A DNA stretch of 64,000 nt, from positions 8,370,001-8,434,000 of the forward strand of contig NC_015957.1 of the NCBI RefSeq assembly GCF_000147815.2, written 5' to 3'. Under the pieces are notes generated by a model that saw nothing but the letters and a program-made list of their open reading frames with translations, made no database searches and was not told the origin of the DNA. Made by a program: the position numbers and the translations under genes. Shown piece by piece: positions 51,107 through 60,845 of the stretch. This DNA is from Streptomyces violaceusniger Tu 4113 (GTDB lineage: Bacteria > Actinomycetota > Actinomycetes > Streptomycetales > Streptomycetaceae). Position 1 is the stretch's first letter, and every line of letters begins with the position of its first letter.

Positions 51107-51270
51107 TTCGTCCTGTGGGTGCACTCGGGGGGTGGATATTCGTCCCCGGATCGCTGGACCGTTCATGGCCCGGTTTGTCACCCTTTGTGGTAGAGGCTCG
51201 TTAACCGATCCCGCTCCCGCGGTCGGCCGGGCGCTGATTGTGGCTGGCGGCCGCCTGGGAAGGAGTTGCC

Positions 51271-53193
51271 ATGGCCAAGGCAGTCGGAATCGATCTGGGC
51301 ACCACCAACTCGGTGATCGCCGTGTGGGAGGGTGGTGAGTCCTCGGTCGTTGCGAACGCCGAGGGGAGCCGTACCACACCGTCGGTGGTGGCGTTCACTG
51401 ATACCGGTGAACGGCTGGTGGGGCAGTTGGCCCGGCGCCAGGCGATTCTCAATCCGAAGGGCACCATCTACTCGGCCAAGCGGTTCATCGGCCGGCACTA
51501 CGACGAGGTGTCCGCCGAGGCGCGGGCGGTGGCTTATGACGTCGTGCCGGACGAGCAGGGCCTGGCCCGGTTCAAGGTGCGTGAGAAGCTGTATTCGCCG
51601 GAGGAGATCAGTGCGCAGGTGCTGCGCAAGCTGGCGGATGACGCGGGGAAGCAGTTGGGCGAGCGGGTGACCGAGGCGGTCATCACGGTGCCGGCGTATT
51701 TCAACGATGCCCAGCGCAGTGCGACCAAGGATGCCGGTGAGATCGCCGGGCTGAAGGTTTTGCGGATCATCAACGAGCCGACCGCGGCTGCCCTGGCCTA
51801 CGGGCTGGACAAGAAGGGTCATGAGACGGTTCTGGTCTTCGATCTGGGTGGCGGCACCTTCGATGTGTCGGTCCTGGATGTCGGGGACGGGGTGGTGGAG
51901 GTGCGTTCCACCGCGGGTGACAGTCATCTGGGGGGTGATGATTTCGACCGGCGGCTGGTGGATTATCTGGCGGATAAGTTCCAGCAGGAGAACGGCATTG
52001 ATCTGCGTCAGGATCCGCAGGCGCTGCAGCGGTTGTTCGAGGCTGCGGAGAAGGCCAAGACCGAGCTGAGTTCGGTGACGCAGACGCAGGTGAGTCTGCC
52101 GTTCATCACGGCGGATGCCTCTGGGCCGAAGCATCTGACCGAGACGGTGATGCGGTCGACGTTCGAGCAGATCACCAGCGATCTGGTGGAGCGGTGTCTG
52201 GGGCCGGTGCAGCAGGCCATGGGTGATGCGAAGGCCGGTGAGAGCGATATCGACGAGGTGATCCTGGTCGGTGGGTCGACGCGGATTCCGGCGGTGCAGG
52301 CTCTGGTGCGGCGGCTGACGGGGGGCAAGGAGCCCAATATGAGCGTCAACCCCGACGAGGTCGTGGCCCTGGGTGCCGCGATCCAGGCGGGGGTGCTCAA
52401 GGGCGAGGTCAAGGATGTGCTGCTGCTGGATGTGACGCCGCTGTCGCTGGGTGTGGAGACCCGTGGTGGTGTGATGACGAAGATCATTGAGCGGAACACC
52501 ACGATTCCGGTGCGGCGTACGGAGACGTTCTCCACGGCTGAGGACAATCAGCAGGCCGTGGACATCGTGATCCTGCAGGGGGAGCGTGAGCGGGCTGCTG
52601 ACAACCGGGTGCTCGGGCGTTTCCAGCTCACTGGTATCCGTCCGGCGCCACGCGGCGAGCCGCAGGTCGAGGTGACCTTCGATATCGATGCGAATGGCAT
52701 CTTGAGTGTCACCGCGCGCGACCAGGACACCGGCAAGGAGCAGTCCATCCAGATCACCGAGACCGGCAACCTGGACCGCGGTGAGATCGAGCGCATGGTC
52801 CAGGAGGCCGAGCGCAACCGGGGCGAGGACCAGGCGCTGCGCGAGGCCGTGGACGCACGCAACGAGCTGGACGCCATCGCCTACCAGGTCGAGAAGCGTC
52901 TTTCCGAGCTGGGTGACGCGGCGCCCTCGCATGAGCGGTCGCGTGCCGAGATGCTGGTCAACGATGCCCGGGAGGCGGTCAGGAACGAGGCCGGTGTCGA
53001 CCGGACCAGGCCGCTGATCTCCGAGCTCCAGCAGGTCTACGCGGGCCTGGCCTCCCACGAGACCGCCGGCGCCGATGCGGGCGCGGGTGCCGGTGGGGCC
53101 GGGGCGGGGGGTGCTCAGGACACCGGAGCCGGGGCCGGGGCCGGGGGTGGGGACGATGAGGATGTCATCGACGCCGAGTTCGACAAGGGCTGA
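51271..53193 (+). CDS. dnaK: Hsp70 chaperone DnaK (accessory copy)
   Basis: A 640-residue Hsp70 with normal motifs: [20 protein letters not shown] at the start, [51 protein letters not shown] and the substrate domain ([20 protein letters not shown]). The tail is Gly/Ala-rich and ends [12 protein letters not shown]. The ATG at 51271 follows AAGGAG. Third codon positions contain more T than in most of the window. No CTTGAGT-N7-ACTCAAG (HAIR) operator for HspR was seen upstream, unlike the classic Streptomyces dnaK operon, so this is likely a second copy under other control. It is followed by grpE, dnaJ, cbpM-like and clpB in operon order. Confidence 0.95.
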
Positions 53194-53240
53194 CCGGTAC
53201 GGCCGGTAGGCCCAGAGGAAGGCTGAGGGAGAGGCCGCTT

Positions 53241-58503: not shown

Positions 58504-60390
58504 ATGACGGACGAGGACCGGTCCCGCGGCGCCGCACCGGAGGAAGCCGTACCGGACGACGTACCGGAGGAAGCCATACCGGGCGCCGTTCCGGAGGAAG
58601 CCATACCGGACGAGACCCCGGATATTTACGGCGCGTATCCGCGGCTCACGGACGAGCAGATCGCCTACCTCTCCGGGCACGGCACCCGCCGGCCCGTGGT
58701 GCCCGGTCAGGTGCTGATCCATGACGGCGGCCCGCCCCCGGACTTCTTCGTCGTCCTCAGCGGCTCGGTCGCGATCACCGCGCACCGCGGCACCCCGGAC
58801 GAGCAGCTCCTGAGGGTGCACGGCCCGGGGCGCTTCCTCGGCGAACTGGGTCTGCTCCAGGGGCAGGTGGCCTTCTACACCGCCCACGCCCAGGAGGCCG
58901 GGGAGGTGCTGGCCCTCCCGGTGGATCGGCTGCGGGCGCTGCTGGCCCGTGACCCCTGCCTCGGCAACCTCGTCCTCCGCGCCTATCTGGGCCGCCGCGC
59001 CCAGTTGGTCGGGGCCGGCGCCGGCTTCCGCATCCTCGGCTCGCGCTACTCGCCCGACACCCGGCGGCTGCGCGAGTTCGCGGCCCGCAACCGGCTGCCG
59101 CACCGCTGGATCGACCTGGAGGCGGACCAGGAGGCCGAGGCGCTGCTGCGCCGCCTCTCGGTCAGCCCGGAGGACACCCCGATCATCATCTGGCGCGAAC
59201 ACCATGTGCTGCGCAACCCCGGCAACGCCGAACTGGCCCAGCTCATCGGCCTCTCCCCACCGATGGCCGCCCACAGCCACTGCGATCTGCTGGTCGTCGG
59301 CTCCGGCCCGGCCGGGATCGCCGCCGCCGTCTACGGCTCCTCCGACGGGCTGACCACCACGGTCGTGGACACGGTGGCCCCGGGCGGCCAGGCGGGCACC
59401 ACGTCCCTGATCGAGAACTACTTCGGCTTCCCGGCCGGGATCCCCGGCTTGGAACTCGCCGAGCGGGGCATGCTCCAGGCGCGCAAATTCGGGACGCAGA
59501 TACGGATCCCGGCGGAGGCGACCTCCCTCGAACCGGGCCACGGCCACTACCGCGTCACCTTCGCCGACGGCAGCGAAACGCTCTGCCGTACCGTCGTCCT
59601 GGCCACCGGCGCCCATTACCGCCGACTGGACGTCCCCGGCATGGAGCGGCTGGAGCGGACGAGCGTCTACTACGCGGCCACCGTCTACGAGGCGCGGCAG
59701 TGCGGCGCGGCCCCCGTCGCCGTGGTCGGCGGCGGCAACTCCGCGGGCCAGGCGTCGCTCTTCCTCGCCGAATGGGTGCCCCGGGTGCACCTGCTGATCA
59801 GGGGCTCGTATCTGGGCGCCCGGATGTCCCGCTATCTGGTCGACCAGATCGAGCGCCATCCGCGGGTGAGCGTGCTGCTGGACAGCGAGCTCCGCGAGGT
59901 GCGCGGCGAGGACGCGCTGCGGACGATCGTGGTGGAGCACCGCCGCACCGGGGAGCGCCGCACCCTGGACGCCTGCGCCCTGTTCGTCTTCATCGGGGCC
60001 AAGCCGTGCACCGACTGGCTCACCGGCGTCCTGGCCCTGGACGACGGGGGTTTCGTGCTCACCGGCGACGAGGCCGAGGCGGCCCGGGCGGCCCACGGCG
60101 TCCGGGAGGGCCCCGGCCGTGGCTGTCTGGGCCTGGAGACCACGCTGCCGGGGGTCTTCGCCGCCGGTGATGTGCGCAGCGGCTCGGTCAAGCGCGTGGC
60201 CTCGGCGGCCGGCGAAGGGGCGATGGCCATCCACCACGTCCATGACCGCCTCGCCCGCACCGGCGCCGGGCCCACCCACCCGAGCGGCGCCGCTCCAGCC
60301 CCGTCCGGCCGGTCCGCCGCGCCGGGCGGTGGTCCGCACGTGTCCGCTTCACCTGCGCGTCCGCGTCATCCGCGCAGCCGCTCCACCTGA
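58504..60390 (+). CDS. FAD-dependent thioredoxin-reductase-like protein with N-terminal cNMP-binding domain
   Basis: A 628-residue fusion. After a repetitive acidic leader (PEEAVPDDVPEEAIPGAVPE) comes a cyclic-nucleotide-binding-type beta barrel (about residues 45-150: PGQVLIHDGGPPPDFFVVLS, GPGRFLGELGLLQGQVAF). Next is a thioredoxin-like segment (FRILGSRYSPDTRRLREFAA) and a TrxR-fold FAD/NAD region with LLVVGSGPAGIAAAVYG near 264 and VAVVGGGNSAGQASLFLAEW near 403. Where thioredoxin reductases have CxxC, this protein reads YYAATVYEARQC, so the redox disulfide is absent. It may use FAD to reduce a partner such as the lost thioredoxin or another substrate, controlled by a nucleotide. A 40-residue Pro/Ser/Arg tail follows. 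Confidence 0.88.
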   Translation: MTDEDRSRGAAPEEAVPDDVPEEAIPGAVPEEAIPDETPDIYGAYPRLTDEQIAYLSGHGTRRPVVPGQVLIHDGGPPPDFFVVLSGSVAITAHRGTPDEQLLRVHGPGRFLGELGLLQGQVAFYTAHAQEAGEVLALPVDRLRALLARDPCLGNLVLRAYLGRRAQLVGAGAGFRILGSRYSPDTRRLREFAARNRLPHRWIDLEADQEAEALLRRLSVSPEDTPIIIWREHHVLRNPGNAELAQLIGLSPPMAAHSHCDLLVVGSGPAGIAAAVYGSSDGLTTTVVDTVAPGGQAGTTSLIENYFGFPAGIPGLELAERGMLQARKFGTQIRIPAEATSLEPGHGHYRVTFADGSETLCRTVVLATGAHYRRLDVPGMERLERTSVYYAATVYEARQCGAAPVAVVGGGNSAGQASLFLAEWVPRVHLLIRGSYLGARMSRYLVDQIERHPRVSVLLDSELREVRGEDALRTIVVEHRRTGERRTLDACALFVFIGAKPCTDWLTGVLALDDGGFVLTGDEAEAARAAHGVREGPGRGCLGLETTLPGVFAAGDVRSGSVKRVASAAGEGAMAIHHVHDRLARTGAGPTHPSGAAPAPSGRSAAPGGGPHVSASPARPRHPRSRST

Positions 60391-60413
60391 CCCCCGACCG
60401 GAGGACGAACACC

Positions 60414-60845
60414 ATGGTTGCCACAGGCTTTGCCTCCTTCGACACGACGGTCGACAAGACCAACCGGCTCCTGAGGGAGATCGAGGACGCGTACGGCTGG
60501 CCCAAGGAACGCCGCAAGCAGTCCTACGCCGCCCTGCGCGCGGTCCTGCACCAGTTGCGGGACCGGCTGACGGTGGACGAGGCCGTCCAGTTCGGCGCAC
60601 AGCTCCCGATGCTGGTGCGCGGCATCTACTACGAGGGGTGGCGACCCGCGCAGACGCCGGTGAAAATGCACAGCGAGGAGTTCTACCGGCGGATCCGGCA
60701 CGACTTCCCGTACTCGATCCAGGGCGACACCGAGCAGCTCGTCCACACCGTCCTGGAGACCCTGCAGCGCCATATCAGCGAGGGCGAGTGGGACGATCTG
60801 CGGGCCCGGATGCCCGCCGACCTGGTCACCGTCATCCCGACCTAG
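60414..60845 (+). CDS. DUF2267-family protein
   Basis: A 143-residue helical protein, MVATGFASFDTTVDKTNRLL onward, with the DUF2267 pattern YGWPKERRKQSYAALRAVLH, LRDRLTVDEAVQFGAQLPML and VRGIYYEGWRPAQTPVKMHS, ending DDLRARMPADL. The family is common next to stress, phosphate and heat-shock genes in actinobacteria and has no assigned biochemical activity. It ends the chaperone/redox block, 23 bp after the flavoprotein gene. Confidence 0.88.
   Translation: MVATGFASFDTTVDKTNRLLREIEDAYGWPKERRKQSYAALRAVLHQLRDRLTVDEAVQFGAQLPMLVRGIYYEGWRPAQTPVKMHSEEFYRRIRHDFPYSIQGDTEQLVHTVLETLQRHISEGEWDDLRARMPADLVTVIPT

Follow-up and report, generated by a model that had tools for sequence, protein, structure and literature searches.

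The 64,000-nucleotide window analysed here (Streptomyces violaceusniger Tu 4113, contig NC_015957.1, positions 8,370,001 to 8,434,000; genome G000 below) holds an accessory chaperone island in which dnaK, grpE, a cbpA-type dnaJ, a cbpM-like gene and clpB are followed by genes of a UBP-type zinc-finger protein (zf-UBP) and a flavoprotein. This island, copy B, is the reduced second copy of a fuller island of the same genome (copy A, at C3:3.60 Mb). Our comparisons make it likely that its chaperone core has recurrently been converted with that of copy A, and that exposed strands were mutated around a break near 56.8 kb. The other genomes in the argument are G149, G150 (S. iranensis), G095, G189, G408, G394, G384, G381 and G204; the suffixes A, B, x and y denote island copies.

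The core of the two copies has been homogenised, and gene conversion would be the simplest account of this. In G000 the copies are 97.3% identical over 51110-58096 (7033 columns), and outside the core the identity is 92% in the compared part of spoIIE, 89% in the flavoprotein gene and 93% in the DUF2267 gene. The synonymous differences between the copies are 1/693 in clpB, 3/264 in dnaJ, 1/108 in cbpM, 11/170 in grpE and 84/499 in dnaK, compared with 44/323 in spoIIE, 75/506 in the flavoprotein gene and 15/108 in the DUF2267 gene (14-15%). The two dnaK copies are closer to each other than to their orthologues (178/495 synonymous differences to G149B), yet no closer than the flanks are. The longest identical runs between copies, 2281 bp in G000 and 890 bp in G095, were each matched by none of 1000 shuffles, and at the right border (about 58086) copy B returns to the sequence type of the other B loci.

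Phylogenies agree with this division. In the trees of flank genes G000B joins G149B (support 100/100) and G095B joins G150B (100/99.8), and an enlarged flank tree keeps G000B inside the B clade (100/100) together with G189x, G408y and G149B, the support for its closest neighbour being 57/25. In the trees of core genes the two copies of one genome join, and approximately unbiased tests reject the grouping of G000B with G149B for dnaK (p 1e-54), dnaJ-cbpM (p 6e-43) and clpB (p 8e-6). Interlocus gene conversion is recognised by tracts with clear borders in which paralogues of one genome resemble each other more than their orthologues, also at synonymous sites, and by flanks that retain the phylogeny of the locus; all of this is observed here, with the exceptions given below. 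Its direction can be argued from the native flanks of copy B and its seemingly non-native core. Homogenised cores were found in 4/5 two-copy genomes (G000, G095, G189, G408). The core identity is 97.4% in G189 (flanks 78-90%) and 97.5-98.3% in G408 (flanks 88-95%); in G095 the dnaK (51397-52997) and dnaJ blocks are 99-100% identical and a 157-bp piece of clpB 97.5%, with the other shared parts at 66-92%, and the clpB of G095B is mostly deleted, which leaves no comparison of that gene between its copies.

One could argue that the island was simply duplicated not long ago and then decayed, which would explain the near-identity of the stretch from cbpA to clpB between the copies of G000. However, the flanking genes within this segment have synonymous differences of 14-15% versus 0.1-1% in clpB, dnaJ and cbpM, they group by locus and not by genome, and the deletions of copy B are common to several species, so we consider this explanation very improbable.

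The second property of the core is a strand-specific excess of substitutions, counted against a reference of those sites at which the single-copy B loci of G149, G150, G384 and G381 agree (at least two present). Between 51244 and 56000 copy B of G000 has changed at 271/1408 C sites (158 to T, 112 to G, 1 to A), 30/1425 G sites and 23/1044 A and T sites; between 56900 and 58086 it is G that has changed (46/369), with 2/355 for C and 2/316 for A and T. The corresponding values are 17/614 (C), 15/574 (G) and 11/413 (A and T) in the left flank and 11/762, 17/677 and 9/497 in the right one. The asymmetry between C and G thus has p values of 1e-55 in the left core, 3e-12 in the right core, and 1.0 and 0.18 in the flanks, and the bases of the core outside the raised class change about as often as in the flanks. 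The maximum-likelihood switch of G000 and of G408 falls, in both copies of each, at 56816/56822 (2 delta lnL, twice the log-likelihood gain, 154-165), with C to the left and G to the right of a single switch, which is the order of resection. The events of G000B start at 51114 and end at 58081, just beyond the coding ends and within the homogenised block.

When the four single-copy relatives and G204 were tested in the same way, leaving each out of the reference in turn, 8/10 left and right tests gave p 0.26-1, the left side of G150B gave p 0.089, and the left side of G381 gave p 0.013 with G changes outnumbering C changes; C was significantly raised in none of the ten. Third positions of island dnaK have a G+T content of 58-77% in the eight copies of the four homogenised genomes; among the 70 distinct sequences, the remaining 62 do not exceed 52%. 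A sequence-only reading of the window had already noticed more T-ending codons in dnaK, grpE and dnaJ, and rightly so: third-position T amounts to 15, 14, 16 and 20% in dnaK, grpE, dnaJ and cbpM versus 4% in spoIIE and clpB and 5% in the housekeeping dnaK; the single-copy near relatives G149, G150, G384 and G381 have 1-6% in their versions of these four genes. A reading of the sequence alone could not reveal the duplicate, the homogenisation or the strand-specific substitutions that underlie these codons.

The changes seem to have accumulated repeatedly. In dnaK and its leader 224/600 C sites are changed among the four genomes, and at 41 of these 224 some copies have T and others G, a sign of repeated hits. 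Private changes since homogenisation keep the same character (C>T 26 and C>G 20 of 51 in G000B; C>T 9 and C>G 9 of 24 in G000A). Identical changes are often common to several genomes, for example 93/139 of those of G000 with G408; therefore a part of the pattern is common ancestry. Two known signatures were tried and rejected: mutation of duplicates like repeat-induced point mutation, symmetric from C:G to T:A, since G is spared where C is changed, and a deaminase-like neighbour context, since C>T is commoner after purines yet confounded by codon identity.

Taken together, the observations would best be explained by a double-strand break that recurs near 56.8 kb, around the middle of clpB. Its ends would be resected in both directions, the cytosines of the exposed 3' strands would mutate to T or G, and repair templated by the twin copy would spread the changes to both loci; the copies would share them because homologous repair uses the other copy. 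Here we infer a mutagen, a break and a cause of the break. In yeast, single-switch clusters of mutations (5' C-to-G) come from bidirectional end resection, and the order of C on the left and G on the right results when both sides of a break are resected 5'-3' (excerpted text of PMC6786661). The island has the same arrangement of mutated C, one switch and mutated G. In contrast to the yeast clusters, its changes are differences accumulated between bacterial species and filtered by codons, there is no APOBEC, and no sign of a TC context was seen in the island. It is a tentative idea, somewhat less likely than not, that the duplicated Streptomyces stress island is a natural break hotspot where mutated cytosines become fixed in both loci, that is, a bacterial counterpart of the single-switch clusters, possibly with a mutagen of single-strand cytosines.

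Several observations weigh against the account of conversion with mutagenesis around a break. The dS (synonymous divergence) between the dnaK copies of G000 is 0.19, equal to the flank level; with G408 added, G000A and G000B dnaK group with G408 and form no lone pair (60/47); the dnaJ copies of G189 are not sisters; and the two copies of G394 are neither homogenised (dS 0.48-0.85) nor T-rich in dnaK. In G408 dnaK lies in two frames per copy, at different places, possibly by sequencing error; the gene-level values of this dnaK concern parts only (2/125 sites), and the DNA identity of 97.5% is unaffected. G189 and G095 have their best split near 52.9 kb (2 delta lnL 33-57) with the pattern mostly in dnaK, the G excess on the right has p 0.001 in G095A and p 0.09 in G189x, the dnaJ of G095 is homogenised without the strand pattern, and a mild C excess is present in the left flanks of G000A (p 0.016) and G408x (p 0.025). 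Non-coding sites give little support: in G000B 10/47 C sites and 1/38 G sites are changed (p 0.02), in G000A 9/49 and 1/38 (p 0.04), and the difference is not significant in G408, G189 or G095. Finally, CTG>TTG, a synonymous C>T at the first position, occurs at 0/83 codons in G000A, 2/83 in G000B and 10/77 in G408x, under the third-position rates, and C>T is scarce in codons such as GTC, CTC and TTC. Codon selection thus either shapes the surviving changes or causes them.

Codon selection is the main rival. According to it, G- and T-ending codons were favoured up to the middle of clpB and C- and A-ending codons after it, through expression or mRNA structure and with no special mutagenesis. The changes are indeed almost all at synonymous sites, their dependence on the codon is strong (synonymous changes in G000B at GGC 41/78 versus TTC 1/40), and the sparing of CTG>TTG in G000 fits as well. 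However, the switch at 56816/56822 is sharp and lies within a gene, and no codon rationale for such a switch is known to us; the pattern of G000 begins at 51114 in the untranslated leader; in dnaK it occurs in eight copies of four two-copy genomes and in 0/62 other distinct sequences; and the housekeeping dnaK has an ordinary composition. We therefore regard codon selection as a possible but rather unlikely sole cause.

Mutation linked to transcription is another rival: strong sense transcription on the left and antisense transcription on the right would leave the C of the respective non-template strand exposed. The excess of C>T on the coding strand of genes likely to be highly expressed under stress speaks for it. 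Yet in the window copy no asymmetry is present further downstream, in the genes of the zinc finger and the flavoprotein, C is not significantly raised in single-copy islands, and the composition of the housekeeping dnaK is again ordinary, which makes this improbable. We give just as little credit to import, in which one copy or both would have received the core horizontally from a diverged donor. It would account for the core dS of 0.24-0.49 between G000B and G149B compared with 0.07-0.12 in the flanking genes, and island cores are found on plasmids. But with such a donor differences would be expected at every base, and in the window core the G and A/T sites are no more diverged than in the flanks; moreover, trees place the core alleles inside the clade of near relatives. 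Import from a donor is thus disfavoured.

Concerted evolution by gene conversion was reportedly described for euryarchaeal chaperonins by Archibald and Roger in 2002. For prokaryotes in general, the accessible portions of PMC6053082 (2018) describe recurrent gene conversion after which paralogues within a genome resemble each other more than they do their orthologues, at synonymous sites too, as is the case here; the words Streptomyces and dnaK are absent from the text of that paper. What differs here is that a 7-kb multigene chaperone block is involved, within divergent flanks and with strand-specific substitutions, and none of the literature matches listed describes this conversion pattern. 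If our account is true, recombination between dispersed bacterial duplicates would not only homogenise them but also be strongly and strand-specifically mutagenic, synonymous sites would record the positions of breaks and the direction of resection, and odd codon usage, often taken as a mark of foreign origin, could originate in place. The idea could then be tested at a known locus with a known switch point, in four genomes.

G000 has four full-length dnaK genes: the housekeeping one, a paralogue at 4.15 Mb and those of island copies A and B, which lie 4.8 Mb apart in contig coordinates. The suggestion that the window holds an accessory and not a housekeeping set is borne out, because a separate dnaK-grpE-dnaJ-MerR operon (MerR in the hspR position) with two HAIR-like sites (HspR-associated inverted repeat) is present at C3:0.24 Mb, with clpB about 3 kb further on, and because plasmids carry the core too (17/72,556 plasmid records have 80% or more of the dnaK-clpB block together in one place). 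That the island had freshly arrived at its present site is not supported, as a locus with the flanks of the window is common to G149, G150, G189, G408 and G095. The internal remnants that had been noticed are real and turn out to be deletions relative to the fuller paralogue. Copy A reads SpoIIE phosphatase, an intact 808-aa PAS-GAF-SpoIIE-HATPase regulator, zinc dehydrogenase, dnaK, grpE, cbpA, cbpM, clpB, thioredoxin, zf-UBP, flavoprotein, hsp20 and DUF2267, and its dehydrogenase resembles glutathione-independent formaldehyde dehydrogenase (312 bits, under the cut-off of 637). Missing from copy B are the genes of the dehydrogenase, thioredoxin and Hsp20 and the greater part of the regulator, whose truncation at the left edge had been correctly recognised, as had the thioredoxin remnant: copy A has an intact thioredoxin with WCGPC at this place and the window a short decayed piece.

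The losses of dehydrogenase and thioredoxin are common to the B-flank copies of G149, G150, G095, G189 and G408, among which only G095B retains hsp20. The second loci fall into two flank lineages, one of G000A and G408x, the other of G189y and G095A with the single-copy G204. Copy B of G095 (L052) has large internal deletions in clpB and the flavoprotein gene; therefore this B locus is decaying further. In G408 (copies x and y, L202 and L203) the aligned dehydrogenase gene of the fuller copy has one in-frame stop, possibly a sequencing error. The extra dnaK at C3:4.15 Mb (L009) is 82% identical to the housekeeping dnaK, and a like copy at 82-83% occurs in 6/6 genomes searched; its locus has no HAIR-like site, and two neighbouring open reading frames tested gave no Pfam family.

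The order from dnaK to flavoprotein is widespread in actinobacteria. Among 80 loci found with the zinc finger as bait (the best of at least 589, a sample leaning toward close relatives of the bait and including several truncated contigs), 34 have the eight genes dnaK-grpE-cbpA-cbpM-clpB-trx-zfUBP-flavoprotein in one order on one strand, L062 among them with two genes inserted ahead of the zinc finger. They belong to Streptomyces, Nocardia, Amycolatopsis, Mycobacterium, Gordonia and other genera, and in five Arthrobacter-type loci the chaperone and redox modules are divergent. The CbpM-like marker of the island (E 1e-30) was found in 72/392 Streptomyces genomes and twice in five of them (G000, G095, G189, G394, G408), a census by a single marker that diverged second copies can escape.

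The gene set proposed from sequence alone (dnaK, grpE, cbpA-type dnaJ, cbpM-like, clpB, zf-UBP, flavoprotein, DUF2267) is confirmed by Pfam in the proposed places; its positions stand overall, with the starts of dnaK, cbpA and the zinc-finger gene corrected to 51271, 53872 and 58236 (Table 1). The earlier interpretation as a whole is partly supported. The housekeeping DnaJ has a zinc centre and the J-protein of the island has none, as judged by Pfam. The window clpB passes the ClpB equivalog score. The MerR_2 protein misses the CbpM equivalog cut-off (30.3 versus 138 bits), but its family and its position after cbpA fit a CbpM-like role.

The proposed analogy to the heat-resistance islands of Gram-negative bacteria holds in function only. 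A mobile accessory proteostasis set is shared with the proteobacterial transmissible locus of stress tolerance (excerpts of PMC8290217 and PMC8407380); in contrast to it, the island has no ClpK/ClpG, the window clpB scoring 791 (ClpK) and 792 bits (ClpG) versus cut-offs of 1900, and combines ClpB with DnaK-GrpE-CbpA-CbpM, zf-UBP and the flavoprotein. Its product is predicted to be a DnaK-GrpE-CbpA/CbpM-ClpB disaggregase with a redox arm of thioredoxin, UBP-type zinc finger and the flavoprotein, and with Hsp20 in the fuller copies. Copy B has no thioredoxin of its own, therefore any redox work of it must use that of copy A or other thioredoxins.

The absence of an HspR operator upstream, also noted before, was confirmed: no HAIR-like site with at most 3 mismatches is present in the window, and none was found in the stretches of up to 400 bp ahead of dnaK in 50 islands, one of which has a site with 4 mismatches and one a shorter upstream stretch. 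Control of the island dnaK by HAIR/HspR was rejected, as no operator was found and the MerR protein of the window scores under the HspR cut-off. Inspection by eye found no convincing conserved promoter motif upstream of dnaK. The promoter of the S. avermitilis dnaK2, which may or may not be the island gene, is not bound by sigma-8 (excerpts of PMC5402319).

In the zf-UBP fingers of eukaryotic ubiquitin binders the Arg after CG holds the C-terminus of ubiquitin. In the island zinc finger Asp49 aligns with this ubiquitin-pocket Arg of USP16 (the alignment to HDAC6 is gapped by one residue), and Asp is found in 81/81 prokaryotic sequences. Asp stands in place of Arg; therefore canonical binding of the ubiquitin tail, which we rejected as a function, is unlikely. 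The solved zf-UBP protein 2IDA, a hypothetical protein, is a relative over residues 8-86 (E 2.4e-31), and its listing names no function. A third zf-UBP match of the genome (L051, C3:1.443 Mb) has a sigma-70-family factor and an acetyltransferase reading frame nearby.

The flavoprotein shares the FAD/NAD(P)H (flavin and nicotinamide adenine dinucleotide) fold of low-Mr thioredoxin reductase (7jyp, TM-score 0.78 by target and 0.41 by query; mean pLDDT, the model confidence score, 77), but has added cNMP and glutaredoxin-like parts and no Cys at either CxxC column in 52/52 sequences; its TIGR01292 score is 207.7 bits, under the cut-off of 343.45. Thioredoxin-reductase chemistry was rejected for want of CxxC. 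Glu378 is conserved in 52/52 and Cys382 in 51/52 sequences (copy A numbering). It is likely that the protein passes electrons from NAD(P)H to an acceptor without a CxxC relay, gated by the cNMP-type domain. None of the literature matches listed describes this pair of zf-UBP and flavoprotein, which, conserved beside a disaggregase, would be a tractable redox-proteostasis module.

Table 1. Features of island copy B and its surroundings (positions of the window)
Feature	Position	Strand	Basis
SpoIIE-type PP2C phosphatase, first gene common to both copies	49127..50329	+	PF07228; 92% nt to copy A
PAS-GAF-SpoIIE-HATPase regulator remnant	50349..51109	+	matches residues 1-202 and 751-771 of the 808-aa copy A paralogue
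Core homogenised with copy A	51110..58086	.	97.3% identical; 2281-bp identical run 55806-58086; trees
Top-strand excess of C>T and C>G	51114..56816	+	C 271/1408 vs G 30/1425 in 51244-56000
dnaK (accessory)	51271..53193	+	PF00012 (HSP70); TIGR02350 951 bits, cut-off 822.55
grpE	53241..53864	+	PF01025
cbpA-type dnaJ without CXXCXGXG zinc centre	53872..54849	+	PF00226 and PF01556 only
18-bp tandem repeat, 10.7 copies (8.9 in copy A)	54877..55068	.	between cbpA and cbpM
cbpM-like MerR_2 protein	55075..55443	+	PF13591 35.5 bits, cut-off 29
clpB (accessory)	55434..58076	+	TIGR03346 1334.3 bits, cut-off 1232.1
Strand-switch point	56816..56822	.	same in both G000 and both G408 copies
Top-strand excess of G>A and G>C	56822..58081	-	G 46/369 vs C 2/355 in 56900-58086
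Thioredoxin scar	58110..58235	+	51 bp at 98% to copy A trx, decayed beyond
87-aa UBP-type zinc-finger protein (copy A: identical)	58236..58499	+	PF02148
cNMP-domain, glutaredoxin-like, thioredoxin-reductase-like flavoprotein without CxxC	58504..60390	+	Pfam cNMP and pyridine-nucleotide oxidoreductase; glutaredoxin-like part judged by eye
Scar at the hsp20 position of copy A	60340..60397	.	comparison with copy A
DUF2267 protein	60414..60845	+	PF10025

The 18-bp tandem repeat separates cbpA and cbpM in both copies of G000 (in copy A at 10291-10450 of locus L010), and its copy number may vary. In G149B, G150B and G095B the two genes adjoin directly and leave no space for it.

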